From the NCBI GenBank assembly GCA_001972305.1, contig BDDD01001619.1, positions 62,789-126,788 of the forward strand: 64,000 bases of DNA, given 5' to 3'. Shown piece by piece: positions 2,264 through 58,402 of the stretch. The stretch comes from Cephalotus follicularis. Its lineage: Eukaryota > Streptophyta > Magnoliopsida > Oxalidales > Cephalotaceae. Positions within the stretch are counted from its first letter, which is position 1, and each line of letters starts with the position of its first letter. Both the position numbers and the translations under genes were made by a program. The notes below the pieces were generated by a model. It worked only from the letters and a program-made list of their open reading frames with translations, was not told the origin of the DNA and searched no databases.

Positions 2264-3020
2264 CATTGCACGAATTTAAAAGATGGTAAACAACAATAAA
2301 AAAAATGGAGATATATATATATATGTGTATATGTGAGTGCTAAAGTTCTTTTGTCTAACTCCGAAGTAGGATTTTATGATATTGTGAATGCATATCTTGA
2401 TTGGTCATTAATGGTGGAATTATAAAATAATTTGCTAAAGGTTTCTTAATTGAGATGTGTTTTGATTCTAGAACTTGGAACGAGATAATAAAGTTCAAGT
2501 ATGGGGGTATTCTATGAATTTTTTAGTATAGATACATTTAACCTGTTTTTAAAGTTTTGATGAACTGAATTTTGTGTGTTTATTCGCTTGGAAAACACTC
2601 ACGAGACAAAACTCGTCCACTGGGGCCACCTAGGGGTTTAACGGCTTGTTGCATAAGCTAAATGCAATCGTGATTCCTACGAAAGTGAGTTAGGTTTTTG
2701 TTTATGTTCTTGTGTGTGCTTTTCAGTTTTTGTTTTTGGTGTTTGTGTATGTTTTCTGGTTCTTACTTTCTATTTTGTTTGCTTGAGGACAAGCAAAGTT
2801 TAAGTATGGGGGTATTTGTTTAGCATAAAAATGTGTTGTTTTTAATGATCTATTTGTGATATTTTTATGCTTGGAATAGACTACTTTGGTTGTGTTATGT
2901 TAATTTTCAGGTACAAGAGCTAAAAGACCAAAGTGCAAAAATACTACCCAAAAGTGTACAAATTGGAGCTTGAAAGTGTAAAGATTGAAGAATTGAAAAA
3001 TTCGGCAGAAACAGGGCAAA

Positions 3021-3325
3021 AAGCGTCGACGCCTTTCATACGCATCGATGTCCTTTCTGGGTTTACATCAAAAGCGTCGACGTCTTTCTATGAGGATCGA
3101 CGTCTTTTTTGGGCAATACAACTTACCTTCAAGAGCTATGAAGAAGGGATCGACGTCTTTCATCATAGGGATCGACGTCTTTGTGCAAAATCGACCTGTA
3201 ACTTTTGGACCAAAAGGGATCGACGTCTTTATGCTTAAGGATCGACGTCTTTCATGCGCATCTCAGAAAAACGCGACTTTTACAAGAAGACATCGACGCC
3301 TTTCAAAAGAAGTCGACGCCTTCCT
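3021..3325. promoter_or_regulatory. GTCGAC palindrome array, Athila U3
   Basis: About ten copies of motifs such as AGCGTCGACGCCTTT, GGATCGACGTCTTT and CATCGACGCCTTTC in 300 bp. They end about 85 bp before the TATATAAA at 3,409. Direct observation; a regulatory role is inferred. Confidence 0.6.
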
Positions 3326-3408
3326 CTGCAGCAGAAATAGAAAGATTAGCTTTTTGCCAGATTCTGTAACTAGGATTACTTTATTTCCGTTTTTGATCAG
3401 TTTTGTAG

Positions 3409-3416
3409 TATATAAA
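3409..3416 (+). promoter_or_regulatory. TATA-like box in the Athila LTR
   Basis: TATATAAA followed by an AC-rich stretch, placed inside the LTR downstream of the palindrome array as expected for a U3 core promoter. No transcript evidence. Confidence 0.45.
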
Positions 3417-4162
3417 CAATATATGGCCGACCAAATCTTGTGTGTAGAAGTTGTAGAACCCTAATTTCTTTTATCAATTCAGTTTTGTTTCATAATGTTT
3501 AGTAGCTAAACTCTTCAAGGTTTTGGGGAAGAACAAAGCCTAGATTGTTATTGTTTCAATTCCATCAATAAAAATCCTTGAATATTTGATTTGTTCTTCA
3601 ATATTTCTGCCTTCGCATACACTTTATTTGTCTGATTAAAATCCACAAACATCTTGTCGGTGAAGCTGAAAGTTGGTGAATAAATGGAGCTTAATTCAAC
3701 GGAGTCTACTCATACGATTTGTCGCAACGAACACACTTCGTATAGACCTAGCATGTCTACTCATACGTCTTGTCATCACCGCCGCACTCTGTATCGACCT
3801 AGCTGCTATTGTTTATCAAGGTATGATCGTTCAAGTAAATGGAATTGTTCAATACAATCTACGGTGAGTTTCTATACCCCAAAACCGTTTCTTAATTATA
3901 TATTCTCTTCTCTTTTTATTAGTTGTTTTTATTAAGTTGCATGTTTTGTTTCTTGGTATTTCGAATTCAACGATTTCTAAGTCTTAATTTCTTGTTTCGA
4001 TTATTTATTTTATTTTGCATAATTAGGAGTAGTTTTTAATAAGTTTATCTCAAATTTGGTATACTTCGCCTAGGTTGGATAAATTACAACTAGTTTCACG
4101 TTTCCCTGCGTTCAATCCGTTACTGCATGATCCGTGCACTTGCGGCTATAAATTTTAAAACA

Positions 4163-5346
4163 TTCTTTTTAACAGTGAACATATTGCGTTAATACACGAG
4201 GGCGTCGACGCTTATCGTGAGCGTCGACGCTTAGGCAGTCCATAACAGCCATGTTCATCGTTCCAATTAATCCTGGGGAAACAACTCAATAATCATGCAA
4301 ATCCAGTTCGATTATTGACCTAGATTACACATGCATGATCAGTTTACAGGTTACAGTAAACATCTTAACAATCCAGCAATCCAACAACCCGAAATTAACA
4401 CGCAAATCATGCATAACAACCATGACAAAACAGTAACCTTAATTCCAACTTTGCATGAATAAAGTCACTACAATTTCCCCTACCTTTTCGCTCCAAGTTA
4501 GGAACTAGAATGTCCACCTCTTTGTGTTCCAAAACCGGCTACAGCAGCCCCAATCTTCGTCCAGAAGCTACAAGCCTCCAGGCTCCAAAGCTCCAAGGTT
4601 CAACAATGGAGGAAATCCTCCCTTCCTCTCTCTATCTTTCCCTCTGGTTTTTACTGTTTTATTCTTGATAATTTCCATTTCTCTTCTTCTCTAGGTTCGT
4701 TTTAAGGAGAGCAGAGAGTTTTATGTTGATTGCATTTTGTTTCTATCTGCATAAATGCCAAACCTCACTCCGTCATCACACCTGGTTGCATGGCGCACCA
4801 GGTGTCTTCCCCTTGCATCATTTCCAGTTGCATGCACTCACATGCCTTCTCCTCTCTGTCATTTCAGTCCTGGCAGACCAAAAAATTGAAATGCATGCCC
4901 AACACATCATAATATACATGCTAAGACGCCTGGATAATGCCCCAAATATGTCCCCTTGTACCACGTTTCTGTCAGTGCATAACGTGTCTGAGATTCGATT
5001 CTAAGCGTCGACCTTTACATGCAGGCGTCGACGCTTATAGCGTTTTACCTCAAAGGCATTGACGTTATCAACAGGCATTGACGTGCATGTACATGAGCTT
5101 ACGTGCGCTTTTGTCCCATAGGTGTCGACGCTTTCATTAAGGCGACGACGTTTTTAGCCCCAATACTGTGCCATTTTGACTTAAAATGCACCTTTTATCA
5201 TTTCTTAATCATTTTTCCTTTCAAAATTCAACATTATGAATTGGAAAACATCATCAAAGTCGGGAATTTCAATATTCTCAATTATTGCATAATAAGATTA
5301 CATTGAAAATTCGATTATTACAATATATGAAATCCCGGGCGTTACA
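4163..5346 (-). mobile_element. Gypsy LTR remnant Z
   Basis: The right edge on the minus strand reads TGTAACGCCCGGGATTTC, a typical gypsy LTR start, and sits exactly where the copia-4 coding sequence stops matching (just after its SVSYL block). Two groups of GTCGAC motifs lie inside, at 4,200-4,232 and 5,005-5,153. No ORF of substance. The left end is not visible: the Athila element abuts it. The simplest reading is that Athila inserted into Z and the rest of Z lies left of the window. ATCTT (5,347-5,351) would be the duplicated target. Confidence 0.5.
4200..5153. promoter_or_regulatory. GTCGAC motifs in Z (two groups)
   Basis: GGCGTCGACGCTT and GAGCGTCGACGCTT at 4,200-4,232, then AGCGTCGACC, GGCGTCGACGCTT, GGCATTGACG (twice), GGTGTCGACGC and GGCGACGACG at 5,005-5,153. 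Several copies show CG to TG or CA changes. Confidence 0.55.
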
Positions 5347-7895: not shown

Positions 7896-8582
7896 CTTGC
7901 TGGGAACACGTGGCCCACGGGCAGCGGAAGACTTATCAATTCATACATTAGGGTTTAGGGTCGATTAACTTTTATTTTTCACCAATAGTTTAATCCCCAA
8001 GCAATGGGATGCCCTAATCTAAGTTTGAATTGTCCCAATGAGTGCCAAGGAACCCTAATTAAACAACCAATTAAACCGAAGACAAAACCAAGCATTGGGC
8101 ATAAAGGGTCGAAAAGTTAGGGTTACCATAAACCCTAGAAATTGACTCCAAACATAGGCTCACAAGGAAACACACAAAAAACCTAGCCTAAAGTCTAATC
8201 AACCTAAACCCAAGCATCCCTAACCCTAAGGGATGACAAACAAACCATCAAAAGAAAATCATGGAGGTACGACTAGGGTACACACACCCTAGCGCCAACC
8301 CACTGCCACAGCGCCACAAGGGATAAGAAGAATGGATTCTTACCAATAGTGAAGACTCCTTCCTTCAAGACAAGCTCCCTCTACTCTTTATCCCAAAAAG
8401 CTCCAAGCTCCTCCACAAGCCATGGATGAGAGGATCCAAGGATGAAGGCTAAGCGTTTACCCTACACTAAATCACTCTAGATGTAGATAAAATGTAGTGT
8501 GCAAGTTATCTCCACCTATAATGACCTTTGAGTGGTGAAAGGAGGGTGAAAATGGCTACAAAATTGAACAAGACGATTTGCG

Positions 8583-9105
8583 CATCGACGTGTAGGCGAT
8601 AGGCGTCGACGCGTACGCTAGTAGCAGGAAGAAGAGAGATGGCAGGGAAGAGAGAGAAAAAGGAAGTGTGTTATGGAAGCTTCAGTTCTTTTGCCCTTTA
8701 GTCATTAAGTATTTATACTTTTGACTTTTTGACTTTTCTCTCTCCTACAAAACCCGCTTATCAGCCTGTCAAGGCCTCAATGCCATGCGCCTCATCTTAT
8801 CCAGGCTTCAACGACAACGATAGGATGAAACAGGCGCCTAGTCTCATTTGTCTTCGCGATGAAGCGTAAAACCCATAGCATCAACGCGTAAACCTACTGG
8901 TTTTTACAGCGTCAACGCCATGCTCTCCATAGCGTTAACGTTTAGCGGCTCAATCCAGTTATGGCGTCGACGCATGCTCTCCATGGCGTTGACGTTTAAA
9001 ACTACTGGTTTTGTCAGTGTCAATGCAAGCCATTCGCGTTAACGCCCAGCAACTCAACTAGACATGGTGTCAACGCATGCTCTTCATGGCGTCGACGCCT
9101 AAGAC
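8583..9105. promoter_or_regulatory. GTCGAC array, copia-4 U3
   Basis: Copies include GGCGTCGACGCGT, TGGCGTCGACGCATG, GGCGTTGACG, AGCGTCAACGCC and GGCGTCGACGCC. Most lie at 8,875-9,105, upstream on the minus strand of the TATA-like box at 8,711-8,717; a pair lies at 8,583-8,612. The related LTR H2 has no such array at the matching place. Confidence 0.6.
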
Positions 9106-10100: not shown

Positions 10101-12792
10101 TGTAACGTCCCCGACCCAAGCCCGCTAATCGCTCAAAGTGAACTACAAGGATCGGTTGCGTTACATGGGGTGAAACATTAACCATCAAATCGTTTAATCA
10201 TTTAACAATCCATTAACCGTTTAATCTTAACTTAGATTTAAAACCTAACATCATTACTCCGTGGAAACATCATATCATATTCAATAGCTTCACAGGATCA
10301 CAATATGCTAACATCATTGAACACCAAATTTCAAAACATCATATTCTCATTATCATGATCGTTTCTAATACCTTTTACGTTCGTACATCACTTAGCATAT
10401 AACATTACACAGCGTAAAAAAAAACTTATTACATCATAAAAATAGTCATTTTCATTACACACCTTTACCATTAACTTCTCATACTCTCAAGTACGTTTTA
10501 TAATTTTTGACATTATCATCTTACTTGAAAACATCATAAACTATAGCATTCATTTCCTTACTCTAACATCTACACATCGTCTATCATAAAACGTTACATG
10601 GCGAAAAATACTAACGCATGACATTAAGCATAAAACTTAATAGCATAACATACTTCCTTTTCGATACTTCATTTACGAACTTCTTCTAAAGCTCGCACTT
10701 TTATGTTCGACGTCACCTGGAAAAGCATTTGAAAACAAGACATTGAAAGGAGTGAGCTCAAATAGCCCAGTAAGGATCATAGTCGTAAAACGTCATTGAA
10801 ATCCGTTGTTTTTGATAATCTTTATCAAAATGTTTGCAATCATACATTTCAAAACATCATTGAAAATCATCTTCTAGTTTTATAAAACTAGAACATTTCC
10901 ATGATCATTCATTTGCTGGTGTATAGCCCAGCCATACTTGAAAACGTCATTAAAATCATTTTTTGATATATTTTGTAAAACCAGAAAATTTCACATTCCT
11001 TTTCTTTTTCAAATCATATTCATTATTTTCTGTCCATATCTCATGAAACATAACGTTTCATAAATAACTGAGGGGTCATAAAACATAAAGGACCTAAATG
11101 AACCATTTCAACATTCGCTTCATCGGGGCATTGTGCACTCCCCGATTACTATCCTTACATCACATGCATGTCCGTGAGCACTCTTCGCTCCATTAACATC
11201 GAGCATCTTGCTCCATTAACATTGAGCATCTCGCTTCATTAACATTAATCTTTACTAGATTAATCCTCCATGGATCGCAATCCAGGAGTTGTTCATCTCA
11301 GTTCGTTGCCATTTCCATTTCATAAAATCATTAGCTCAAAGCATTCATGAAACATCATCGTACAACATTTCTAAAACTGGTTTCTCATGTAGAAACATTG
11401 ATTTCATTTCCTTTCACAATTCATAAAGCATTTTCATCACTTTGAGTAATTTAACTCAAAACATTCATAAAACGGCTTTGCATAACATTTCTAAATCTTG
11501 AATTTCATATAGAAATAAATACTTTTAGAGAAAACTTAAAACATAAACATTAACGTATACATCTTCACGAATTCAGAAAGCTCAAGTTCATAAAAATTGG
11601 TTGAGAATCGAATCCGTTATGAATTTAAAATCAATACTTCCATATGAAAATAGAACATGAGTAGTAAAATGAAACATGGATTCTCATCAAGAATTCGACA
11701 GAATTTCGAGAACCATAAAACATATCAGTTAAAGAAGACTTCTTGATGTTTCTAAAACATTAAACCATTCAAAATTTCATCAAGAATTGAGCAGGATATG
11801 AATAAAACAATTTGTAGCATAATTTGGAAGTAAAACAGAGGAACTTTGATAAAAATGGGTATGGAATTTACATACCTTACTTTGATCTCCTTCTCTCTTG
11901 CTCTCCCACGAATTCTCCTCTTAATCACAGTAGAAAACTCTTCCTTTCCTCAGCCAAAATGACTAAACTCAGCCTTCATTGCCTATAAATAAGCTAGTTG
12001 CTTGGGGAGCAAGTTTTCTCCCTCTCTCTCATGACTCAACACTCTTAGTTGCCCATGTGCTAAATTTAATCCAACCAAATGGTGACACTTGTTATATCAT
12101 CTGAAAATATCTCAGATCCTTCACCCTTGTCCTACCACGTGTCCATAATTAATGAATTTAACTCACAAAATGACAAAAGGTTAGACTTTGGCAACCAGTC
12201 TGCAGCTCAAAGCGTCAGCGCTTCACTTTCAAGCATCGCCGCTTACGGGCTTGTTCTGAGTTCTTCAACTTCCTCCTCGACTAAAGCGATGACGCTTCTC
12301 TTTCAAGCGTCGCCGCTTTCGAGTCTTGTCCAAGTCAACAGGGCATACTTTGACTTCAAAGCGACAAAGCTCACATTTCAAGCGTCGTCAGTTACCTCAC
12401 AGCGCTGCAGCTTTCGTCTAAGAGTCGTCGGTTAGGGGAATTTGTCCAAGTTCAAAACTATCTGTTTTTAACCGGCGCTATAAGGGTGCTAAGTGTCGAA
12501 GTTTAACGGTCAAAGCGTCGCAGCTTCACCTAGAACCGTCAGCGCTTAAGCCAATTTTCTTCCATTTCCACCACATATACCAATAGCCAATTTCGATTTT
12601 CTTCCGGGGGCGCTGCCTCCGAGCCCCTGCCCGCTGTCCGGGTAGTGGGACCCCCCATCCGCTCACCAGGGAGATGAACCCCCGAACCCCCGAGCGTTAG
12701 GGTCATTTCACGGGTCCCTTGAAACATTTTCCAACCTCAACAATGGCAACCATATATCCATATAACTTTAACAAAATTTCCTGGTCATTACA
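10101..12792 (-). mobile_element. Solo LTR X1 (gypsy-type)
   Basis: Flanked by a perfect 5-bp duplication, TCAAT at 10,096-10,100 and 12,793-12,797. On the minus strand it begins TGTAATGACCAGG and ends GGGGACGTTACA. There is no second LTR and no internal coding region, hence solo. It contains a GC-rich block with a hairpin (about 12,600-12,700), a GTCGAC-type array and a TATA-like box (RC of TATAAATA at 11,984-11,991). X2 is a second copy of the same family in opposite orientation. Confidence 0.85.
12208..12545. promoter_or_regulatory. GTCGAC-type array, X1
   Basis: Degenerate copies such as AAAGCGTCAGCGCTT, AAGCATCGCCGCTT, AAGCGATGACGCTT and AAGCGTCGCCGCTTT, about 215 bp upstream (minus strand) of the TATA-like box at 11,984-11,991. 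Many have GTCGCC or GTCAGC in place of GTCGAC. Confidence 0.5.
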
Positions 12793-15831: not shown

Positions 15832-17030
15832 TGAATATACTACAAGGGGGGGTGAATTGTAGTATTGAATAGTCTAATGAACTTTTTCGGATAAATCAAA
15901 TTAAAACTATGAAAACAAATTAAATAAACAAGCAAGGCAAATAAACAATGTAATTGAAGAGAGAGGGTTAGAGAGGTGCAAACAAGATTTTATAGTGGTT
16001 CAGCAAATCTCGTGCCTACGTCCACTTTTCCCAATGACCTCCTTGAGATTCCACTAGATTCCTTTTAGTACACTTCGATTTAGGATTTCGGGTGCAAATC
16101 GTAACACCTTACAATTTGAGTGATTGACCTCAATCACTTTTGGGTTCACTCCCTAATCTCACTAAGGGTTCACTCCCCTATCTTACTGAGGGTTCACTTC
16201 CCTTTACAAGTGTGGATTACAAAGATGATTTGTGTTTTTGGATAACCTCTCAAAAGGTTTTATATAGCTATGTAATTACAGAAAATGATTGCTCTCAAAT
16301 AGACAAAAAAATCTTGATAGTGCTTTGATATTGATTTGAAAGTTGGGGATTTGCTCTTGATATTCTTGTGCTTGCTTGATCGAGTTGTATCTTGTTCTCT
16401 CTTGTTCTCTACTTGTTCAATGTTATAATCTCCAGTTTATAGTTGATTTTGAAGTGATAGAGCCATTGCTTGTGTCTTGGGACTTGTTGCTTAAAAGACG
16501 GTGCATTAAAATGTAGTCAGTAATTGTTCCCAGTGCGCAAATCGTCGACGATGTTCCTCAAAGTGGCGCCGCTTATGTGACCGTTGTACATTTGAATTTG
16601 AATCTGTATGCTCAAAGCACTGAAGGTTTGAATTTGGAGTCGACTGTTTAACACAAAGCGCTGAGGTTTCTTCAAATCGTCGCCGCTTTGTGCAAATTAA
16701 TTGGCCTTAAAAGTTTCTGTAATTGACCGTTGATGTAGAGTGCTTAAGCGTTGATGCCTTGGCTCAAAGCGCTGACGCTTTCCTTAGACCGTCAACGGTT
16801 TGACGAATTTCTCCTTTACTAAAAATGCTTCAACTGTTGATGCTTTGCACTCAGGCTTTGAAGGTTTCCTTAAGCGTTGACGGTTTCATCATGACCGTCG
16901 ACGCTTAGCCCTGTGCCTGTAATTTCTTGTTTTTTCTTTACAACATTTTATCTTTACTTGCACAAAAAGAAACTTTGTTAAATGCAAATATGTTATCATC
17001 AAAACTCGGATTAAGACATAAATGTCAACA
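15832..17030 (-). mobile_element. 3' LTR of copia-1
   Basis: On the plus strand TGAATATACTAC ... AATGTCAACA, 1,199 bp. It is preceded in element order by the purine tract AAAAAAGGGGGAG (minus strand, about 17,033-17,045). A TATA-like box (TATAAAC, minus) lies at 16,435-16,441. The U5 end carries an 8-bp inverted repeat, TACTACAA / TTGTAGTA, around a run of G. Confidence 0.9.
16540..16910. promoter_or_regulatory. GTCGAC array, copia-1 3' LTR U3
   Basis: Many copies such as AAATCGTCGACGATG, AAGCGCTGACGCTTT, ACCGTCAACGGTTT and ACCGTCGACGCTTA in about 370 bp. The TATA-like box is about 100 bp further along the element. Confidence 0.55.
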
Positions 17031-18680: not shown

Positions 18681-18821
18681 ATTTGGTGAGAGTATTTGGT
18701 TTAGAAATGAATTTCGATGGGAAATCAGTTTGAAATAGCCAGAGAGAGGATTGAGTTTTAGGTTTTAGGTATTGTGCTTAAAAATGGCTAGTAGACGAGG
18801 GGTTCTATTTTAAAACACTAC

Positions 18822-19005
18822 TAAAGCGTCGACGCTTTTAAGAGAAGCGTCATCGCTTTGTGCATTTTGCACAATTCTAGCAAAACTACAGTGTGAAGCG
18901 CTGACGCTTTTACGCAAGGCATCGGAGCTTTGAAAGTTTTGCACAATTCGAGTTCTAAATGCAGTGTGAAGCGCTAACGCTTTCAGTCTAGGCGTCGGTG
19001 CTTTG
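18822..19005. promoter_or_regulatory. GTCGAC array in copia-1 pol-ORF2 spacer
   Basis: AAAGCGTCGACGCTTTT, AAGCGTCATCGCTTT, AAGCGCTGACGCTTTT, AAGGCATCGGAGCTTT, AAGCGCTAACGCTTT and AGGCGTCGGTGCTTT over 180 bp, ending about 140 bp upstream (element sense) of the ORF2 start. Copia-2 has a matching array in the same spacer. Confidence 0.6.
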
Positions 19006-19103
19006 CTCTGTTTTTCTTCCGATTTTTCGATATCACGATTTAATGAATGCAAATGATGCAAAAATGAGCATACAAGCACATCAAACAACAACATATGATC
19101 ATA

Positions 19104-23907: not shown

Positions 23908-23909
23908 AT

Positions 23910-25133
23910 TGAATATACTACAAGGGGGGGTGAATTGTAGTATTGAATAGTCTAATGAACTTTTTCGGATAAATAAAATTAAAACTATGAAAACAAATTA
24001 AATAAACAAGCAAGTCAAATAAACAATGTAATTGAAGAGAGAGGGTTAGAGAGATGCAAACAAGATTTTATAGTGGTTCATCAAATCTCGTGCCTACGTC
24101 CACTTTTCCCAAGGACCTCCTTGAGATTCCACTATATTCCTTCTAGTACACTTCGATTTAGGATTCCGGGTGCAAATCCTAACACCTTACAATTTGAGTG
24201 ATTGACCTCAATCACTTTTGGGTTCACTCCCCAATCTCACTAATGGTTCACTCGCCTTTTTCACTTAGCGTTCACTCCCCTATCTCACTTAGGGTTCACA
24301 CCCATTTACAAGTGTGGCTTACAAAGATGGTTTGTGTTTTTGGATAACCTCTCAAAAGGTTTGATATAGCTATGTAATTAAAGAAAATGATTGCTCTCAA
24401 ATAGACAAAAAATCTTGATAGTGCTTTAATATTGATTTGAAAGTTGGGGATTTGCTCTTGATATTCTTGTGCTTGTTTGATCTAGTTGTATCTTGTTCTC
24501 TCTTGTTCTCTACTTGTTCAATGTTATAATCTCCAGTTTATAGCTGATTTTGAAGTGATAGAGTCGTTGCTTGTGTCTTGGGAGTTGTTTCTTCAAAGAC
24601 AACGCATTAAAATGTAGTCAGTAATTGTTCCCACTGTGCAAAGCATTGATGGTGTTCCTCAAAGCGTCGCCGCTTATGTGACCATTGTACATTTGAATTT
24701 GAATCTGTCTGCTCAAAGCGTTGAAGGTTTGAATTTGGAGTCGATGATTTAACACAAAGCGTTGATGGTTTCTTCAAAGCGTAGCCGCTTTGTGCAAATT
24801 AATTGGCCTCAAAAGTTTCTGTAATTGACCGCTGATGTAGAGTGCTTAAGCGCTGACGCCTTGGCTCAAAGCGCTGACGCTTTCCTCAAACCGTCGACGG
24901 TTTGAGCAATTTCTCCTTTGCTAAAAAATGCTTCAACCATTGACGCTTTGCACTCAGGCTTCGAAGGTTTCCTTAAGCGCTGGCGGTTTCATCATGACCG
25001 TCGACGCTTAGCCCTGTGCCTGTAATTTCTTCGTTTGTCTTTGCAACATTTTATCTTTATTTGCACAAAAAGAAACTTTGTTAAATGCAAATATGTTATC
25101 ATCCAAACTCGGATTGAGACATATATGTCAACA
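23910..25133 (-). mobile_element. 5' LTR of copia-1
   Basis: 1,224 bp; on the minus strand TGTTGACATATATGTCTC to TAGTATATTCA. TATA-like TATAAAC (minus) at 24,536-24,542. It differs from the 3' LTR by scattered substitutions and a short extra stretch near 24,245-24,290. Confidence 0.92.
24640..25010. promoter_or_regulatory. GTCGAC array, copia-1 5' LTR U3
   Basis: Copies include AAAGCGTCGCCGCTT, AAGCGCTGACGCC, AAAGCGCTGACGCTTT, ACCGTCGACGGTTT and ACCGTCGACGCTTA. Neighbouring starts are about 20-21 bp apart in the densest part (24,848-24,900). The TATA-like box lies about 100 bp downstream. Confidence 0.6.
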
Positions 25134-27957: not shown

Positions 27958-28082
27958 AAAGCGTCGACGCCTTGTGGAAGGGCGTCGACGCTTAAGCCAT
28001 GTCTAAGCGTTAATGCCTTGTGGAAGGGCGTCGACGCTTAGCCATCTAAGCGTCAGTGCTTTTGAAAAAGCGTCGACGCTTA
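27958..28082. promoter_or_regulatory. GTCGAC array, copia-3 5' LTR
   Basis: Six units: GCGTCGACGC, GCGTCGACGC, GCGTTAATGC, GCGTCGACGC, GCGTCAGTGC, GCGTCGACGC, with start-to-start spacing 21, 25, 21, 22 and 20 bp. It lies about 195 bp upstream of the TATA-like box. Confidence 0.65.
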
Positions 28083-28526: not shown

Positions 28527-30639
28527 TGTAATGACCAGAAAATTTTGTTAAAGTTATTTGGAAATATGGTTGCCATTGTTAAGGTTCACAAATATTTCAA
28601 GGGATCCGTAACATGACCCTAATGCTCGGGGGGTTCGGGGGTTCCGCTGCCCGGACATCGGGCAGGTGCTCGGGGGCAGCGCCCCCGGAAGAAAATCGAA
28701 ATTGGCTATTTGTTTTGGATGAATGTCATGTTGAAAGCATCGATTTCAAAGGTTAAGAGTTGACGACGATGTATAAAGCGCCGATGGTTTCACTTAAAGT
28801 GGCGACATTTTGAAGGTAACCATCGACGCCTAGAGCACTCATGGCACCGGTTAAAAACAGAGAGTTTTGAACTTGGACAAATTCCCCTAACCGACGACGC
28901 TTAGACGAAAGCAGCAGCGCTTGGAGGTAACCGATGACTCTTGAAATGTGGGCTTCGACACTTTGAAGTCAAAGTATGACCTCTTGACTTGGACGAGACC
29001 CGAAAGCGGCGACGCTTGAAAGAGAAGAATCAGCGCTTTAGTCGAGAAGGAAGTTGAAGAACTCAGAACAAGCCCGTAAGCGGCGACGCTTAAAAGTGAA
29101 GCGCAAACGCTTTGAGCTGCGAACCAGTTGCCAAAGTCTGCCTTTTTGTCATTTTGTGAGTTAAAATCATTAAATATGGGACAAGTGTCAAGCCAGGGTT
29201 TAAAGAGACCAGATATTTTATATTTTAATGCCAAGTGTCACAATTGGATTGGAGGATTTAAGGCACATGGGCCACTATGAGAAATGATTCATACGAGAGA
29301 GGGGGTGACTTGCTCCCCAAGTAACTCAGCTATATATGGCCAAGTGTGGGCTGAGTTCAGCCATTTTTGGCTGAGAAAGGAGTGCTTGTTGCTGGGAATA
29401 AGTGGAGAATTCAGCTAGAGAAGAAAGAAAGGAAATCCAAAGTAAAGTAAGGAAATTCAACACCCGTTTTTATCAAAGTTTCCCCTGTTTTAATGCAAAT
29501 TTTACAGCTGAATGTTTTATTCATATCTTGCTCATTTCTTGATGACATTTTGAATGGTTCAATGTTTTGGAAACTTTAAGATGTCTACTTTAACTATTAT
29601 GCTTTGTTCAATTTGAAATTCTGCCGATTTCTTGGTGAGAATCCATATTTCATTTTACTGCTCCTGTATTGTTAAAACAGGGAACTAGTCACTTTAAAAA
29701 TTCATAGCAGATTCAATTCTCAACCAAATATTATAAACTTTAGCTTTCTGTAATCGTTAAGATGTCTACTTTAATTTTACTTTTTTATGTTTTCTCATAA
29801 AATTATTACTATATGAAATGTGAACTTTAGAAATGTTATGCAAAGCTGTTTTATGAATGCATTTGAGTTAATTACTCAAATGAAGAGAAATGTTTATGAA
29901 TTGTCAAAGAAATGTATACGATTTTGTTTATGAATTCTTTGAGCTGATCACTCAAAGTATTAAAAAATGTTTTATGAAATGAATTTATGAGAATGAACCA
30001 CCCTTGGATTGCGATCCAAGGGAAATGAATCCGAGATGGATTAATGTTATGGAGCGAGATGCTCGCGAACATGCATGTGATGTAGCCCCGGTGAATTGGT
30101 GTGAAAGGGTTCATTAAGGTTTTATGACTTCTATGTTTTTGTGAAATGTTATAGTTATGAGTTTTGACTAGAAAAGTGATATGATGAAATGTGTTTTACA
30201 ATGAAAACCTTACTGAGCTATTTTGATCTCATTCCTTTCGATGTTGTTTTCAAATAAAATGTTTTCAGGAAAGGATTGAATGGAGAATGCGAGCTTTATA
30301 GGGAGCTATTAAGAAGGAGTTTTGTGAAGGAAATGTATTATGAAATAGGGTTTGCATAAAATGTTTTTGACATGTAATAGGATAATGTTTTTCGGCTGTA
30401 GTATATGTTTATGATAAAGGATGATCCTGTGTAAATGTAATTGAACATTATGGTTTATAACATTTTTAGATAAGATGAGAATGTTTAAAGTTTGAATTCA
30501 AGGTTATGTATTATGTTGAAACATATGAGCTTTATGATATATGTTAACTTTAGACTAGAGCGCTAAAGGATGTAACGGTTCACCTCACGTAACGCACCGA
30601 TTCCTCGAGGCTCGCTTTAAGCATAAAGTGAACTCGGAA
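28527..30639 (+). mobile_element. Solo LTR X2 (same family as X1)
   Basis: Starts TGTAATGACCAGAAAATTTTG inside the copia-3 5' LTR. CTTGG at 28,522-28,526 and again at 30,640-30,644 is the likely target duplication (alternatively 30,648-30,652). Compared with X1 it lacks the last bases GTTACA and about 0.5 kb in all. It has a 7+3+7 hairpin CGGGGGC-AGC-GCCCCCG at 28,671-28,687 and a TATA-like TATATATG at 29,331-29,338. No coding sequence. Confidence 0.75.
28735..29115. promoter_or_regulatory. GTCGAC-type array, X2
   Basis: Degenerate copies (AAGCATCGATTT, AAGCGCCGATGG, ACCGACGACGCTTAG, AAGCGGCGACGCTT, AAGCGCAAACGCTTT). It ends about 215 bp upstream of the TATA-like box, the same distance as in X1. 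Confidence 0.5.
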
Positions 30640-34569: not shown

Positions 34570-34676
34570 TGTTTATTATGTTTGAATGATTGTTTTAATC
34601 GAATGCATATTTGATGTGATGATTGATTTTTGGTTATTATTCTGTTCTTGCTTGATTTTGTGTTCTGTTTTACAAA

Positions 34677-34960
34677 AACGTCGACTTCTTTTCTGGAAAA
34701 TTCTTGCTTTACAAAAACACGTCGACTTCTTTTCTGCAAAGTTTTATGAATTATGAAAATCACGTCGATCTCTTTTTAAAACATCGATTTCTTTGTGTTT
34801 CCCTAAAATACGTCGACTTCTTTACAAACGCGTCGATGCTTTTCAAAACGCAGCGTTTTTCTGAATTGTTTTCTTTCGTTCTTTTAAAGAACACGTCGAC
34901 TTCTTTTGAATCACGTCGACGTCTTTATCTCAGAAATCAAATTCTTCATAAAAACGTCGA
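34677..34960. promoter_or_regulatory. GTCGAC array in copia-2 pol-ORF2 spacer
   Basis: Copies read AACGTCGACTTCTTTT, ACACGTCGACTTCTTTT, ACGCGTCGATGCTTTT and ACGTCGACGTCTTT, a local sequence type differing from the LTR array of the same element. They lie between RNase H and ORF2, as in copia-1. Confidence 0.6.
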
Positions 34961-35167
34961 TCTCATGCTCATAATACACTTTTACCCTATTCTGAGTTTT
35001 TCAAAAATTTCTACTCTCTTTATTCTTCTTTCAAAAATCGTTCTATTTGGTCGTAAACAATCCTCTGAATCTTTCTCCAACTTCAAAAACTATTTTCATC
35101 TCCTCAAATCCGTCTGTTTTTATCACTCTCTGTGTTTATCTTTTGTACTCACCAACTGTTTGATAAT

Positions 35168-37185: not shown

Positions 37186-38208
37186 TGTTGACGATTTAGT
37201 CTCAATCCTAGTTTTGATGATAACATATTTGCATTTGACAAGTTTACTTGATGTGCAAGATATTACAAAGTTCAATACCAAGGCAAAACTCATCTGCAGA
37301 AGAAGACATCGACCTTCCAGAAATGACATCGACGTCCGTACAGAAAGACATCGATCCCTTTCAAGAAGACATCGACGTCTTTAGTGCCAGAAAGTACAAG
37401 ATCAAATTATAATGAAGACATCGTCCTTCCAGAAATAACATCGACGTCCGTACAGAAAGACATCGATCCCTTTCAAGAGACATCGACGTCTTTAGTAACA
37501 GAAGCTACTGTTCAAAATTTGCAATGAAGACATCGATCCCTACATGCAAAGACATCGACGTCCGTACCAAAGACATCGACTCCTTTCCATAGACATAGAC
37601 GTCTTTCTAGACCTATCTGCATTTTCCAGAAAAGACATCGACCCCTACAGAAGAAGTCGATGTGATGCTCAAAGTTTCAAATGCTGGAGATTTCCCAGAA
37701 ATGACATCGACATCTTTTTAAATGGATTGACCCGGGAAACATGGAACGACTAGTACGCGCACTTCCAACGGCTATCAACTATCAAAGACATCGACGCCTT
37801 TCCAAAGACATCGACGTCTTTATGTTAGCAGAGACAAAAATTCAGAATTGCACTAACACATTTTATAATCAAAAGCTTCCATGAATTATGCAACGGCTAC
37901 AAATCTTTTCTGCCTATAAAAGGAAGACTGAAACCTCGGAAGAATAACAACAATTCAGAATTATTCACATAAATCACACAACACCAAGAGAGATATCAGA
38001 TTCAAGCATTCTAGTGTGAAAAAGCTCAAAGTGCTCTATAGTGTTCTAAAAGGCTTCTAAGCTCTATCTTTTGAGTTTATCTTAGTGTTTCATATTGTGA
38101 GCTGTATTATTCATATCAAACCTATTTGAGAGGTTATCTTGTAAACACTTTCACTATTACTTGTAAAAGAGGAGAATCCTCTAAGATCTTGAGGTCAATT
38201 CCTTGTGA
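37186..38208 (+). mobile_element. 3' LTR of copia-2 (truncated)
   Basis: Starts TGTTGACGATTTAG. Matches the 5' LTR up to TCTTGAGGTCAA and stops in CCTTGTGA about 110 bp before the expected end. TATAAAAG at 37,915-37,922. The array here is longer at its start than in the 5' LTR. Confidence 0.88.
37305..37823. promoter_or_regulatory. GACATCGACGTC array, copia-2 3' LTR
   Basis: About fifteen copies. A block of about 120 bp (CCTTCCAGAAATGACATCGA onward) is present twice, at about 37,310 and 37,425. The 3' end lies 92 bp before TATAAAAG, matching the 5' LTR. Confidence 0.65.
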
Positions 38209-38362: not shown

Positions 38363-40083
38363 CAACCGCATCATCATTAGTTGAATCTATGCCTAGGATG
38401 ATTAATTGATTGAAAATTTAATTAGTGGATGTGTTTGTATGGTTAAACTAATTTTCAAAGTGCCTGAATGCTTACATGATAGTTTTCAAAGTTTTAGAAA
38501 CTAAATTGTGAGACTGTCTTGGGGATTATGTTACAATGTCTTTGGACTTATGTTTAGAACCTGCATAGTGCAGTTTGGATTGCCAAATTGGAATGCCAAA
38601 GTCCAAACCATTGAAAACTGCAGTTTTTGCGAGTTGCAGAAACTATGGAGAAGGTTTAAGCGTCGATGTTTTTTTGGTTGAAGCGTCGACGCTTACTTCA
38701 CTGTCTTGAAAAGCGTCAACGTCTTTGTTAAGTGTCAACGCTCACCTGTATTTCATGTTTAAATGCATTGGACGTTAAGCGTTGACGTCTTTGTATAGTG
38801 TCGACGCTTTGATTAAAAAAACTATTTTATAAAAATTTGGAATTTTTGCATTAAGGCACTTAGAAAATAATAATCATTGTTTGATTTAGTAGGAGTTTGA
38901 CCTATAAACAATCCTTATATTAAATTTTATAATTGGTTATTATTAAAGGCATTTGTAAATTGTTTAAAGTTATATTGGATATACTTTTATGATCTTATGC
39001 ACAATGGATGGCCTATAAGGACAAGACCTAGTTTATGGTTTTTCTTGTGTGAATGATTTTATCTATTATATTAATGATCTGTAATAAGGTGCCTGCGTGC
39101 ACCATTTTTCCTCTTATGTAATTACTCCTTGAAAATTTGTATGTAATTTTTATTTTAAAAATGTAAAGTTGCATTGTAAAAGAAGACTTTGCGAAAGGAG
39201 AAATGGAGACGAGGAGAAAAGAAGTACAAGACCTTTGAAGGTCATGAATGCATGGTTATAAATGTAATAAATAGATTTATTCATAGCACATAGGAAGACC
39301 AAGTAGTGACTTTGGGCTCAAGTCATTACTTATAGTGATGTCCTTGCCATTCCATTGATTTATTTTAGAAATAAATCGAAGGTGCATAAGAATCTCGTCA
39401 TGCATGCTAAGCCGTAATTAATTGGAATTGGGTAATGAAACCAATGAATTAATTAAAGGCTTGGTAATTAAAATTTGAGACCGCAAAATTCCCTCAATTG
39501 AATAATAAGTCTGAACGTAGGAACCCATGGAGTGGTTCCCCGTGGCCTTCCACAATTTTCGTTGAGTGGTGTACATGGGTTATTAGTTTGTCATGCCCTA
39601 GATGAGGCTGGTAATCTATGGGACACTATGTCGACGTTGGTGTTGGGAATCGCAAAGGGTGGCTATATTTTAGCACTTGGACACGCCTACGTGTGGGTGT
39701 TAAAACTAGTGCATTCCAATGAAAATTCTAGGTGTCTGACATATCGTGATTCTAATTGTTTGTCATGCCCTAACTGAGGCCATATTGAATCTAAGGCAAA
39801 ATTCTATGATTGGATCTTGTATTAGATACAAATTGGTAAGATAGCCTACCCATTGGACATATTATGGTTTTTCATGCCCTAGCCGAGGCCATAATATGAT
39901 TGCGATGGATTCCAATCCCCATTAGGAAGTTGGACTTCTCAAGTTCCATATGAGGGTATGGGATACGATTAGAATAGTGGGAGGAACCATAAGCACTAAA
40001 GACCAAGTGTTATGGTAGTCATATATTAAAATTGGAATAAATGCTTACTCAACTTTATATTTCCTTATCTAGGTTGCTATAAA
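38363..40083 (+). other. Long leader of copia-3
   Basis: 1.7 kb without a recognisable gene between primer site and gag. It contains a group of GTCGAC-type motifs at 38,658-38,805 (AAGCGTCGATG, AAGCGTCGACGCTT, AAGCGTCAACG, AGTGTCAACGCTC, AAGCGTTGACG, AGTGTCGACGCTTT), the only array here in a 5' leader, and repeated TTGTCATGCCCTA text near 39,590-39,880. Confidence 0.7.
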
Positions 40084-44668: not shown

Positions 44669-45948
44669 TTGTTGAGTCACAATCATGGGGAGATTGTTGA
44701 ATCTCAATCATATGTTTTAATGATTACAAATTTGCATTTAACAAGTTTACTTGATGTGCAAGATATTACAAAGTTCCACAAAAAGGCAAAACTCATCTGC
44801 AGGAAAAAGACATTGATCTTCCAGAAATGACATCGACGTCCGTACAGAAATACATCGACTCCTTTCGATAAGACATCGACGTCTTCAGCGACAGAAGCTA
44901 CTGTTCAAAATGTGCAATAAAGACATCGATCCCTACATGCAAAGACATCGACGTCAGTACAAAAGACATCGGCGCCTTTTCAATAGACATCGATGCCTTT
45001 CTAGAGCTACCTGCATTTCCCAGAAAAGACATCGATCCCTACAGAAGAAGTCGATATGATGATCAAAGTTTCAATACCTGGAGATTTCCCAGAAATGACA
45101 TCGACGCCTTTTAAAAAGACATCGACGTCTTTTAAAATGGTTTGACCCGGGAAACCTGGAACGACTAGTTGGTGCACTATAAACGGCTAATAACAGAAAA
45201 GACATTGACGCCTTTTGAAAGACATCGACGTCTTTATGTCAGCAGAGACTAAAACAAAGCTGCATCAACAAAATGTTATATCCAATATGCCCAAGACTTT
45301 TGCAACGGCTATAATCTAAAGAATGCTATAAATAGAGGCCAAGAAACAAAGCTCAGTGACTGGAACACAACTCTTGATCATCCAATCACAAAAGCTCAAC
45401 TTGCACATCTACAAAAAGAAAGATCATCAAGCTAGATTATACATTTTCATATCCAAAGCTTGCATCTAGTTTACACCTTCATATCCAACCTTTGAGAGGT
45501 TATTTGTCAACACAAACTTTCTTTACAAATCCTTCTTTGTAAAAAGGGTGTTAAAACCCTTGGTGAGAATTTAGAGGGGAGTGAACCCTAGTAAGGTGTT
45601 TGTTTGATTTGCACCCGGAACCTAAAATCAAGTGTCAGGTGTTTGTTTGATTTGCACCCGGAACCCAAAATCAAGTGTAAGGTGGTTTCTTTGATTTGCA
45701 CCCGTAAGCCAAAAATCAAAGGTTGCTAGTGGTAGCTAGTGGAATCTCAAGGGGTTCTTGAGAAAGTAGACGTAGGCACGGTTTTGCCGAACCACTATAA
45801 ATTCGTTTGCACACTCTCTATCCCTTAACTCTCTTTACTTACAAGTATTTTATTTGTTCTTGTGTGCTTATTTATATTCATAGTTAATTTGTATTTTCCG
45901 CATACAAATTTTGTTCGTTTAAGGTTGCCATATAGTTAGCTTTTTTTC
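44669..45948 (+). mobile_element. SIRE-like LTR remnant W
   Basis: Inserted between CTGAT (44,664-44,668) and ATGAT (45,949-45,953), a target duplication with one change. It begins with TTGTTGAGTCACAATCATGG and GGGAGAT, then TGTTGAATCTCAATCATATG at 44,695, so it carries a few bases of purine-tract-like sequence before an LTR. TATAAATA at 45,327-45,334. The body matches the copia-2 LTR (GATTTCCCAGAAATGACATC) but the last 100 bp differ. No coding sequence. Confidence 0.65.
44808..45236. promoter_or_regulatory. GACATCGACGTC array, W
   Basis: About thirteen copies of GACATCGACGTC or GACATCGACGCC type. It ends 91 bp before TATAAATA, the same distance as in both copia-2 LTRs (92-93 bp). Confidence 0.62.
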
Positions 45949-46757
45949 ATGATCCTTAGACCTGAGCGACTGCTCTATATTGTATGGAGCCGGTTATGCT
46001 TTGATCTCCACCTTACCCAATTCTTGCTCAGGGTTGACAATCTTGTAGTCTTTGGGTATGATCGAATCTATACGAATATAAGTGAGTGCACAATATGTGA
46101 TTGTCATACCTGAGCGAAGGTGATCGGCTCTATTATGGTCTAATTGTACTTTGAACTTATGAAATCCTTGGCCAAGGTTGAGGTGGACTAGAAATTAGAT
46201 TTCTGGAGAGTCTACCAAACATCCTAGTAATGATCAGATATTTTAGCGATTGAGGTATTATCTAGGGTTGACGCGTACCCTTATCTTAGACCTCAATCGG
46301 GGCCAAGTATGACAAGGGATTATAGTACATGCGAACCGATGACTTAGAAAATCTAGCGTTATGGCGGTGTGTAATAAATTATGGGAAAATTAATTAGATT
46401 AGTTTTTTCATCTGGATAATATTGGATATTATTCCAAGAGCATTTAAATAGGTCTGTGACTATTTAGAATTGCTTAACCGAACCCTAGGGGCATTTCGGT
46501 AATTTATGAAGACCACCGATTATAACCAAGATTTTATAAGGTCCCTACCCGATAATAATTAGTTCATAAATATGTTGGACGTATTAAGTCTAGGTGAAAT
46601 TTATAAAATCTAATATCGATTAGGTGGATTTTGTAATTTGTGGAAACACATTTGCTTGATCTTACTTAACCAATATTCGAAGGGATATGTGGTATTGCTA
46701 AAATGAGTTGGACTCATTTAAATAAAAGTTGGACTTTATCTGTTTGACCAGTTTTCA

Positions 46758-46882
46758 AGACGTCAACGCCTTGTGGAACGGCGTCGACGCTTAAGCCACG
46801 TCTAGGCATCAATGCCTTGTGGAAGGGCATCGATGCTTAGCCGTCTAAGCGTCAGTGCTTTTGAAAAAGCGTCGACGCTTAG
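46758..46882. promoter_or_regulatory. GTCGAC array, copia-3 3' LTR
   Basis: Six units aligned with those of the 5' LTR: GCGTCGACGC copies alternate with changed copies (GACGTCAACGCC, GGCATCAATGCC, GGCATCGATGC). Confidence 0.62.
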
Positions 46883-52016: not shown

Positions 52017-52027
52017 TGGTATCATAC
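52017..52027 (+). other. Degenerate primer binding site of G
   Basis: TGGTATCATAC right after the 5' LTR end; probably a decayed TGGTATCAGAGC. Confidence 0.55.
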
Positions 52028-52097
52028 AGAAGGGTTGGGATTCTACGTGATATGAAGAGTATATGATAGTAACATCTTGTTATTGCATGAGAAAGAA

Positions 52098-54964: not shown

Positions 54965-55816
54965 TTAGCCTTTCGGCGAGGCCTAGGGTCTGTGCATTGA
55001 ATACGTCGGCCCCTCGTGCGAGGTATGGTTGTTATAGATTAGCCTCTCAGCAAGAGCTAGGGTATGTGCATTGAATACGCCGGCCCCTTGTGCAAGGTAT
55101 GGTTACTATGACTGAGTTTCTCGGACGAGGGCTAGGGTCCGTGCAGTGATATGCTGGCCCCTCGGACGAGGTTGAGATATGGTGCGTGTAGTTACTTAGA
55201 CGAGGGCTAAGGTCCGTGCAGTGATATGTCGGCCCCTTGAACTGCATGAGGTTTCTCTGACGAGGGCTAGGGTCCGTCTGGTGATACACCGGTCCCTAGG
55301 ACAAGGCAGAGGTATAGGCACTCTACACCGGTATGGGTGTATGAAGGATGATGTAAACATGTTGTTGCCTTACCTATGATTATTGCTACAGTCGCTGAAT
55401 TTTGATGATATAGAGAGCCTGTGTGGCTGGTCTGATGATATACAGAGCCTATATGGATGGTCTGATGATATACAAAGCCTGTGTGGCTAGTCTGATAATA
55501 TACAGAGCCTGTGTGGCTCTCTGATGTTATTGCCTATGTGGCTGGTCTGATGATATACAGAGCCTGTGTAGCTACTCTGATGTTATTGCCTGTGTGGCTA
55601 CAGCCTGTATGGCTAGACTGACGATACACAGCCTATGTGGCTAGTTTGACGATACACAGCCTGTGTGGCTAGTTTGACGATGCACAGCCTGTGTGGCTAG
55701 TCTGATGATATACAGCCTGTGTGGCTAGTCTTATGATATACAGAGCCTATGTGGCAACTCTGATGTTATTACCTGTGTGGCTACAACTTGTGTGGCTAGA
55801 CTGACGATACACAGCC
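54965..55816 (+). repeat. Minisatellites of G 3' LTR
   Basis: GC-rich ~60-70-bp units (54,965-55,305) and ~28-30-bp GCCTGTGTGGCTAGTCTGA units (55,400-55,816), continued at 58,403-58,555 after insert Y. Confidence 0.85.
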
Positions 55817-58402
55817 TGTAATATCCTGTTTCTATGCTTACATGTCTTATGTTGGGTTTTTACCTTTTGATATATGCTATGGTTTGTGAACGCTTTGATT
55901 CTTTGCCTGAAATCCTATTATTTTTGTTTTCTGGGCACAAAGCGTCGACGCTCTCATTAGAACCGCCGACGCTTTGGGTGCTGAGTGACACGTTGAAGCC
56001 AAAACGTGTGACATCGACGCGTTTTGTATTTAAGCGTTTAACCGTCGACGGTTTAAGTAAACAGTCGACGCTTTGGTCGGCTTTCCATACCAGTTTGGAC
56101 GGTGGGCTGTTTAGGAAAAGAGAGGTTTTTGCCATTTTTGTTGATCTGATTTTCCTTGTCTGTTTGAAACCGAATCTGCATGAAAGGAAACTTATTAGTT
56201 GCATGATTTTACCATTAATTTGACACGTTTTTGTTGTTTTAAAACTGATCACTAAAAATTCTTTGAAAATCATCTGCACATTTTGATAAACACGAACAGC
56301 AGCTTGAACGCCCTTTTCTGCATCATTTTTGACGTCTTTTGAAGGTAATTTCTAAACAAAAATTGTAGTTTGTACTATGTAGTTTATATATCATCCTTTA
56401 ATTTGTATTAAAACCGACTATAATTTGATTTCGAGCATGATTTAAGAGGCCTGTTGAAACTGATTTTCTGTTGTTCTAAATTTGTTCATATATGAAATTT
56501 AGGTGCATAATTTGTTTTGCTGATGTTTTGATCAAATAAATTCTGCTATAGATGCGTAAATGTTATTGTTTTATACTATGAGAGACAAAGATCAGATTAT
56601 AGTTCATGATTTTGTAAACTATTTTAAAACCAGGTTTTGACATGAACATGCTATGCTAAACTTGTTATTTTCATGATTTTGTGTTTATAATCACCATACT
56701 GATAGTTACAGACTCATATGACATGTTTTTAAAATCTGTTTATTGCTCCTATAACTTCTGAATATGAAAAAAATCCGAATTGTTCATGAAATTGAAACTG
56801 TTTTCTGCATTGGTATTCTGTGTCTGACGCAAACCGTCGACGCTTATTCCGTGAGCGTCGCCGCTTTGTACCGTTTTGTGCTTTGGTCAGTCGACTCTTT
56901 GCTCGACGCTTTGTCCTTTTACGCAACGAAACCGTCGACGCCTAGAAACAAACTGTCGACGCTTTATGGCAGTTTTGATGTTTTGTTCTTTTTATGTTGT
57001 GTGATGCTTGGGCTTAAATGTTTAGGTCTTAATATCATTCGTGGTGGAGTTTAGGACACTTCTAGGGAGCTCTTGTACGGTATTCTAGTTTGTTTAGATT
57101 TTTGACCTGCTAAGGTACTGATTCTTCGTTCTTTGGTACTCTTTCGATTGAACTTTCATTAATTGATGATTTTGTACGTTTTATTGAACGAATTTATGTT
57201 TCTGGTTTATTCGAAATAAAACTCGTATTTTGATATGGATATTCTCATTTTGATAATAATCATACTGAAATGGATTTTAACATTGTTACTTCAGATATTG
57301 ATTAGTATATTTTCTGTTATCGAAAGTATGTTATTTATTTTAGACATGGCTTCCACTTTAGGAAGTATGTTAAACTTCAGATACAGATCAGAATTTGATT
57401 TTAAGATCGGATTTTGATTTTGATTTATGATATGAAAGTATAATCCTCTTTAAATAATTTCAGATATGTCTGGAGACAGATTACATAAGTACGTTTTAAA
57501 TTGTTTTAGAATAAAACAATATTTTAGCATAATAACATACAGAGAAAACCCTACCTAAGAGGTATCATAGGCATGTTCTTTGGCACGGAAGACATGACAC
57601 CTACCGTGGCGGTGTGATCGGTCTACGGCGTCTCTTTTAAATATGTGTCCTGAGAATAGGATATGGATCCTTTTGAGGCGTATGAGTATACTCTAGTTAT
57701 TGTCAGAATTCAGAAATTCAGTATTTGGGATTGTTTGTGTAGTGTCGTACACGACTTTTCTGTCAGAGCATGTGGACCTCGCGAACCCCTTGCACCTATA
57801 TATGTATGTATGTCAGAAAGTCTCTGTTATGGAATTATGAAATCAGATAATGTTTTGAATTATGTTATGTTTTCATAAAGTTATGATGATTCTATAACTG
57901 CTCGTTTTTAAATATTCTGTTTTACATTTCAAGAATATTTACTATGTTACTTTACTGAATTTAAAGTTCAAGTTATTCTGTCTACCGTTTACTGTTTTAA
58001 TTCCTTATCCGTACTGAGGTTTGCTCAGTCGCGTTTTTGTTTCTATGCGGCAGGTTTTCAGGATCATGGGGGAAACGTGTGATGAGAGTTACCCACTTGT
58101 TAGAGGATTATCTAGGAGTTGGTCCTTGTGTTTTCCAGTAGAATCAGATTAGTTTTCAGTAAAAACAGTTTCAGATTTTGGTTTTGTTTTGGTTATGTTT
58201 TCATCTTAAACAGTATTTGGATATCGGATTATGGTTTGTTTTTATTCAAGATTGGTTAAATTTTCAGACTCTGTTTTATATCAGTTTGTTATAAGATATG
58301 TTTTCAGACCACCACACTCGTTTCGCATCAGGTTATTGTTAGGTATTCAGTTATGTTCAGTTTGGTATTATGACCTGTAAGGGCTCCCACCATCGGGGGT
58401 CT
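55817..58402. mobile_element. LTR-like insert Y within G's minisatellite
   Basis: Starts TGTAATATCCTG and ends near CATCGGGGGTCTTA; flanked on both sides by G's 28-bp repeats, which hides any target duplication. The TGTAA start suits a gypsy-type LTR whose TTACA end is damaged. No coding region is recognised in 2.6 kb. Two GTCGAC groups are inside. Solo LTR is the best guess; orientation is probably plus. Confidence 0.5.
55940..56965. promoter_or_regulatory. GTCGAC motifs in Y (two groups)
   Basis: AAAGCGTCGACGCTC, ACCGCCGACGCTTT, GACATCGACGCG, ACCGTCGACGGTTT and ACAGTCGACGCTTT at 55,940-56,072; ACCGTCGACGCTTA, GAGCGTCGCCGCTTT, ACCGTCGACGCC and ACTGTCGACGCTTT at 56,830-56,965. Confidence 0.55.

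Follow-up and report, generated by a model that had tools for sequence, protein, structure and literature searches.

In a 64-kb stretch of the Cephalotus follicularis genome (contig BDDD01001619.1, positions 62,789 to 126,788; hereafter the window), the long terminal repeats (LTRs) of several unrelated retrotransposon lineages carry dense arrays of one short palindromic box with a GTCGAC core, spaced preferentially 19-23 bp apart. We suggest that these arrays are cis-regulatory binding sites for a host factor, placed upstream of the promoter and gained in parallel by the different lineages, a reading which, judged from sequence, we hold at a probability of about 0.5. All counts below come from this one window, and the box matrix, the blocks and the tests were all derived from it. 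It is AT-rich plant DNA (39% G+C, CpG observed/expected ratio [[o/e]] 0.62), composed mostly of nested LTR retrotransposons.

GTCGAC occurs 42 times against 4.86 expected from 200 dinucleotide shuffles, and across the 64 kb the 8-bp palindrome CGTCGACG is found 25 times, where the shuffles give 0.085 (maximum of 2 in 200). Clusters of at least three one-mismatch words within 100 bp number seven, compared to 0.005 in shuffled sequence (maximum of 1). Among the 256 8-bp palindromes CGTCGACG ranks first in excess over an order-2 Markov expectation and, among those with at least four G+C bases, it yields more clusters than any other (7, the next having 3); four palindromes made entirely of A+T exceed it. 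An iterated 16-bp matrix, with its threshold set at ~1 hit per 10 kb of order-1 Markov sequence, called 145 boxes in 15 blocks; their consensus is a ~16-bp palindrome close to AARRCGTCGACGYYTT, with forms including GCGTTGACGC and GACATCGACGTC around the CGTCGACG core. At a score of at least 12, there are 117 boxes inside the blocks (19,866 bp) and 6 in the remaining 44,134 bp (four of these six in D2, the second copy of an insert D), while whole-window shuffles give 0.85 boxes (maximum of 4, n=20). At a score of at least 10, 10 of 141 matches fall outside the blocks, six of them in D2.

As the blocks were drawn around the arrays, this inside/outside contrast is descriptive, and detection with one lineage left out is the fairer test. 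A matrix retrained without each lineage in turn works in all six groups: every one of the 15 blocks yields 5-10 boxes at a score of at least 11, compared to 0.02-0.13 when that block is shuffled 200 times, with the caveat that the boxes of the other lineages had originally been called with the joint matrix. We conclude that the arrays are real, and the shuffle counts and the leave-one-lineage-out matrix rule out an effect of base composition, as the first-pass annotation had maintained. It had also described G, a Ty3-type element, as free of arrays; this stands in so far as its LTRs have no match scoring at least 12 and no cluster, but one isolated match of at least 10 is present there, at 59484.

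The boxes are located in LTRs or LTR-like inserts, in linkers that precede the envelope-like (env-like) open reading frame (ORF) of two Sirevirus-type elements (pre-ENV arrays), and in one leader, so that the earlier placement in LTRs holds for most arrays but not for the copia-1 and copia-2 linkers or the copia-3 leader. The features are as follows, with primer-binding sites given as PBS, polypurine tracts as PPT, and reverse transcriptase and ribonuclease H as RT and RH.

2817..3420, plus strand: E, the 5' part of the 3' LTR of an Athila-like Ty3 element; ten boxes at 3020-3322 in five pairs, a TATA-like box near 3409, PPT-like AAGTATGGGGGTAT just before 2817, integrase ORF at 591-1622.
4199..5346, minus strand: F, an LTR-like insert with its start, TGTAACGCCCGGG, at 5346; boxes at 5002-5154 and 4199-4233.
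8579..9101, minus strand: Y, the array of the copia-4 LTR (PBS at 7895, minus), with a TATA-like box ~54 bp past the main array and one box pair downstream of that TATA-like box.
12209..12548, minus strand: D2, the second copy of insert D (78% over 1449 columns), nested in Y; matches at 12209/12230, 12283/12304 and 12512/12533.
16539..16907, minus strand: array of the 3' LTR of copia-1 (Sirevirus-type); 13 boxes, PPT AAAAAAGGGGGAGATTGTTGA at 17039.
18823..19004, minus strand: pre-ENV array of copia-1; six boxes in three pairs, between the RT/RH ORFs and a Transposase_32-like ORF (18171-18764).
24640..25010, minus strand: array of the copia-1 5' LTR; 13 boxes, PBS at 23907.
27958..28082, plus strand: X1, the array of the copia-3 5' LTR; six boxes.
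28529-30635, plus strand: insert D, LTR-like, start TGTAATGACC, flanks CTTGG.
28775..29113, plus strand: array of insert D, with 10 of its 12 box calls; the others are at 28734 and, isolated, at 30591.
30908..31293, plus strand: array of the 5' LTR of copia-2 (Sirevirus-type); 11 boxes, TATA-like box 95 bp downstream, PBS at 31926.
34675..34966, plus strand: pre-ENV array of copia-2; nine boxes, between the RT/RH ORFs (to 34569) and Transposase_32-like ORFs (35069-36223).
37303..37820, plus strand: array of the copia-2 3' LTR; 15 boxes, PPT tracts at 36867 and 37177.
38657..38810, plus strand: copia-3 leader array; six boxes, between the PBS (38351) and gag.
44827..45234, plus strand: W, a Sirevirus-type LTR nested in X2; 12 boxes, one TATA-like box 93 bp downstream and another within the array.
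46757..46881, plus strand: X2, the array of the copia-3 3' LTR; six boxes.
55939..56965, plus strand: C, an insert inside G, start TGTAATATCC; boxes at 55939-56074 and 56831-56965.

Spacing was measured in 11 non-redundant blocks, taking adjacent gaps of up to 150 bp. Gaps of 19-23 bp make up 49 of the 84 (7, 15, 19, 6 and 2 at 19, 20, 21, 22 and 23 bp, respectively), with at least three in each block. When two-box arrays are excluded the figure is 47/82. When boxes are placed at random, minimum gaps of 12, 16, 18 and 19 bp give means of 12.3, 17.3, 22.0 and 23.5 (maxima of 25, 33, 34 and 35 in 4000 placements). The preference for this spacing is therefore clear overall. Some pair units are themselves repeated, every 43-46 bp in X and every 72-73 bp in the copia-1 pre-ENV array, which is what would be seen if the arrays were meaningless minisatellites, arising easily by tandem duplication from a CpG-rich palindromic seed. 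However, the similarity of spacers within the 49 pairs is marginal (0.325, compared to 0.263 when re-paired, p 0.07), so the pitch does not obviously stem from duplication of a 21-bp unit, and a matrix trained on other lineages detects the same word in unrelated ones; we regard such drift as highly improbable.

In several LTRs the array ends 87-98 bp before a TATA-like box: 87 bp in E, 98 bp in both copia-1 LTRs, 95 bp in both copia-2 LTRs and 93 bp in W. We propose that the arrays most likely serve as an upstream activating region, bound by a DNA-binding protein of the host. This putative protein would bind each ~16-bp palindrome as a dimer, and would bind cooperatively to two palindromes ~20.5 bp, or two helical turns, apart. 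The LTR arrays, placed upstream of the core promoter, would act on that promoter, while the second array before the env-like ORF of the two Sirevirus-type elements could serve an internal one. Unrelated Ty1 and Ty3 lineages would have acquired such sites mainly through parallel gain and local duplication, as a result, we propose, of box-bearing elements having been copied more. The idea of a common host-recognised enhancer, raised in the first-pass annotation, fits the position upstream of TATA in several LTRs and the 19-23 bp spacing, as well as the fact that nothing else is clearly shared in the vicinity of the boxes; it stays a prediction from these features.

A number of observations weigh against this reading. 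Block by block the spacing is weaker, with p<0.05 in 6/11 blocks at a 16-bp minimum (E, copia-1 LTR, copia-1 pre-ENV, D, copia-2 LTR and C) and in 5/11 at 18 bp; at the 16-bp minimum, spacing alone is not significant in F, Y, X, copia-2 pre-ENV or the copia-3 leader. A laxer test (12-bp minimum, two-box arrays counted on the observed side only) gives p<0.03 in 10/11 blocks but is too lenient. The distance to the TATA-like box varies elsewhere (196 bp in X, to CATAAAA; 54 bp in Y; 218 bp in D), no clear TATA-like box follows the array in C and F, and all these boxes were chosen with a loose pattern. V and X3, two LTRs related to array bearers, contain no match of even 10, so arrays have been gained or lost among related LTRs. 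In the comparison of W with the copia-2 LTRs discussed below, boxes and spacers do not differ significantly in divergence (spacers 32/249, p 0.23, for the 5' LTR; 33/249, p 0.25, for the 3' LTR), and the contrast between boxes and sequence outside the array is borderline for the 3' LTR (12/132 against 19/102, p 0.05). Finally, the E and copia-2 arrays, the only two folded, form better RNA structures than each of 100 shuffles (z -3.5 and -3.6).

This last result is what would be expected if the boxes functioned at the RNA level, as transcribed hairpins for packaging, dimerisation or small-RNA production, with DNA binding being secondary. Covariation between the palindrome arms is seen at box positions 3-14 and 4-13 (values reached in 0 and 1.6% of 500 shuffles) and is absent at the other six position pairs; PMC5311732 and PMC10760457 describe LTR palindromes of maize Sireviruses as hotspots of small RNA. 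Good folding is, however, expected of any array of palindromes, and the covariation of the arms, seen at two of eight positions, fits a dimeric protein as well as RNA hairpins. Furthermore, the LTR arrays of E and the Sirevirus-type elements (the pre-ENV and leader copies excepted) lie upstream of a TATA-like box, and therefore outside a transcript started there, and hairpins do not account for the 19-23 bp pitch. A primary function in RNA thus appears improbable.

Evidence for the number of lineages comes from element anatomy, established from primer sites, polypurine tracts and LTR ends. The first-pass annotation counted at least seven unrelated families, among them X as a gypsy-type LTR, Y as an insert listed apart from copia-4, and copia-1, copia-2 and W as three SIRE-like elements. 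X turns out to be the LTR of copia-3 (PBS at 38351, PPT at 44126, ends TGTTAGATAGG..CCAACA), with its first copy at 26636-38349, split by insert D and copia-2, and its second at ~44135-47648, split by W. Y is the copia-4 LTR and is related to X, and copia-1, copia-2 and W belong to one related lineage, leaving about five independent lineages rather than seven or more, including the Ty3 LTR. A conservative count gives three lineages backed by coding sequence (Sirevirus-type Ty1, a second Ty1, and Ty3) plus two or three unassigned ones. Common ancestry is accepted within the Sirevirus-type group and within X/Y, whereas BLAST, masked comparison and RT identity rule out a single ancestor across the Sirevirus-type group, X/Y, E and C/D/F.

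The Sirevirus-type assignment draws on polypurine tracts of the AGGGGGAG type, present in multiple copies before the 3' LTR of copia-2 (36867, 37177) and copia-1 (17126, 17039), with attachment context GATTGTTG and with GGGGGAGATTGTTGA in both, as in Sireviruses; a further match of this type at 20929, inside copia-1 pol, was left uncounted. The RTs of copia-1 and copia-2 share 70% identity over 176 aa, against 31% over 298 aa for copia-3 and copia-2, so that by sequence the two appear related to each other and distant from other copia RT of the window, in the manner of Sireviruses. The highest identity to the copia-2 RT among the matches listed, the best 120 of 7993 scored candidates, is 75% (Hibiscus). 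Transposase_32-like ORFs follow pol at 18171-18764 (minus strand) in copia-1 and 35069-36223 (plus strand) in copia-2; their Pfam score is below the cut-off, and they are taken as env-like by position only. A bacterial assembly yielded one distant RT match and a viral sequence collection two stretches with paired boxes; in viral contigs, RT and integrase query patterns matched 7, 4, 3 and 22 stretches, with no relative among them.

The E integrase contains rve and H2C2 domains and is of the Ty3 type: its top PDB match is Ty3-G Gag-Pol (94.2 bits, E-value 8.8e-26), with foamy-virus integrase a close second (90.7 bits), and no Ty1 chain is found in the best 60 of 117 PDB matches. The 5' end of this element lies outside the window and the 3' end of its LTR was not located; we tentatively take it to be of the Athila type, since its repeated AAGTATGGG-type tracts resemble Athila PPTs. 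Inserts C, D and F all start with TGTAA (TGTAATATCC, TGTAATGACC and TGTAACGCCC, respectively), the end of insert D is not CA, and Tekay/Del is a candidate type for these LTR-like inserts.

If unrelated elements carry the same boxes, one lineage, probably the Sirevirus-type, could have evolved the array and the others could have received it through gene conversion, recombination or nested insertion and deletion, with later divergence; the first-pass annotation had raised exchange of a short mobile module. The variable presence of arrays in related LTRs (present in X and Y, absent from X3 and V) would agree with this, as would a 57-bp match of 82% between E and the copia-2 LTR that extends beyond the last box. 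BLAST across lineages otherwise gives short matches located at the boxes (overlap being judged against the box calls), and those between D and Y stem from D2 within the Y block. However, when boxes were masked and 60-bp flanks compared with shuffles in 66 block pairs, the only strong pair was copia-2/W, which are related families, with copia-1/D (z 3.8) and Y/copia-1 pre-ENV (z 3.4) marginal. E shows no significant similarity to copia-2 or W within these 60 bp, where the 57-bp match is no longer prominent. Apart from the two marginal pairs, then, flanks of unrelated lineages are no more alike than shuffles, and box variants differ from lineage to lineage. Recent transfer of a module is not supported, and we consider transfer in general unlikely, albeit the strongest of the competing explanations. 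The earlier statement that the families share no other obvious sequence accordingly holds near the boxes for unrelated lineages and fails within the Sirevirus-type and X/Y groups.

CpG o/e is 1.2-2.7 in the arrays and 0.2-0.8 in the remainder of 13/15 blocks, D and F showing no such enrichment. Such CpG-dense boxes could be targets that the methylation or small-RNA machinery of the host recognises, their repetition being a mutational by-product. Compatible with this, the two copia-1 LTRs differ at 24/156 box sites against 9/209 spacer sites (p 0.0003) and 42/833 sites elsewhere, mostly by transitions. This does not extend to the LTR pairs of X (boxes 8/72, spacers 3/49, elsewhere 96/1244) and copia-2 (4/123, 4/298 and 9/448), where boxes show no significant excess, and in none of the three pairs do CpG sites inside boxes change faster than those elsewhere; fastest decay of boxes after insertion as a general rule is therefore rejected, as it holds for copia-1 only. 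Moreover, a pure liability should be lost, yet between W and the copia-2 5' LTR boxes differ at 11/132 sites compared to 36/185 outside (p 0.006). Divergence leans towards conservation of the array region while elements were active, although both the lower box divergence between families and the faster change in copia-1 are weakly indicated. A role solely as a silencing target seems to us quite improbable, marginally more so than one in RNA, and the upstream host-factor site is still the reading we prefer.

Similar palindromes are known from Sireviruses. In the excerpted text of Bousios et al. 2010 (PMC2829016), high-copy palindromic RM boxes lie in the 5' half of the LTR, a short distance upstream of the TATA box and within CpG islands, with extra copies before ENV in ENV-containing elements. 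Their core is CGG-CCG, Tnd-1 being an exception; they are called Sirevirus-specific, are absent from the classic Ty1/copia elements compared there, and are described without a binding protein. Tnt1 box I is mentioned in the same excerpt as an LTR enhancer repeat, and 20.5-bp pairing of RM boxes is not mentioned in it. According to the excerpted text of PMC10760457, the maize palindrome CACCGGACNNNGTCCGGTG is common to Copia elements and Helitrons, and maize Ty3 elements are generally without an obvious structure peak.

The RM anatomy is shared by copia-1, copia-2 and the LTR part of W. For RM, at least eight palindromic copies per element are expected, those in the LTR mostly in its upper half, and each LTR here carries more than eight (13 per copia-1 LTR, 11 and 15 in copia-2, 12 in W), all before LTR position 650 of 1022-1262, and further boxes precede the ORFs considered env-like by position (six in copia-1, nine in copia-2). 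The core, however, is CGTCGACG rather than CGG-CCG, with symmetric CCG..CGG flanks only at some copia-1 and C boxes, and the boxes are not confined to Sirevirus-type elements, being found also in E (Ty3), X/Y, the copia-3 leader, C, D and F. In copia-1, copia-2 and W, the arrays are of the known Sirevirus kind with a different core. What departs from the published description is the GTCGAC core, the pairing, and the occurrence of the same box at the same overall preferred pitch in a Ty3 LTR, in a second Ty1 lineage and in additional LTR-like inserts. Like maize CACCGGACNNNGTCCGGTG, whose sequence differs, one palindrome here spans two transposable element superfamilies of one host. A limited literature search, which does not establish absence from print, found no published GTCGAC array common to Ty1 and Ty3 LTRs.

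The heat-responsive ONSEN elements have short repeated or symmetric LTR sites for host factors, and the present boxes resemble these and Tnt1 box I in being short, repeated or symmetric LTR sites with probable host-factor recognition. To our knowledge, sites of that type have been described for single families or close relatives, unlike here, where one site is common to unrelated neighbouring lineages. The sole known factor site considered, that of VOZ factors (GCGT-N7-ACGC), has similar inverted half-sites, but the boxes read GCGT-N2-ACGC, and this difference in spacing sets them apart from it.

Other features of the window concern its nesting. G (14421-26138 and 50937-59657), which has a Retrotrans_gag match, shows up as two internal parts on either side of a shared LTR at 50937-52020, with a further LTR copy at 58576-59657, a layout like that of a tandem product of LTR recombination. 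V, a Y-type LTR with no internal part seen and flank repeat GGATG, is nested in G within 26137-50936; V itself contains copia-3 (flank CTATG) and the solo LTR X3 (GTTTG), while the first X LTR is interrupted by insert D and copia-2 and the second by W. G also contains minisatellite-like repeats of GACGATATACAGCC-type units (55403-55819, 58403-58549 and 25625-26105), within which insert C lies. In copia-1, the region 22017-22886 (minus strand) encodes, by eye, three tandem CCHC zinc-knuckle-like units and includes a local DNA duplication at 22131-22354; a separate Pfam zinc knuckle is located in 22844-23542.

A wider proposal, which we put forward only tentatively, is that several Ty1 and Ty3 lineages of one plant independently adopted one host-specific code, namely palindromes paired at a distance of two helical turns, placed upstream of the promoter and recognised by a single shared host protein. 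The box word would then follow the host factor and for that reason differ between plant groups (CGG-CCG in published Sireviruses, GTCGAC here). The same box on unrelated Ty1 and Ty3 backbones amounts to a natural replicate design, and the paired boxes offer a strict probe for the protein. If the proposal is true, a host factor would be identified on which many plant retrotransposons depend.

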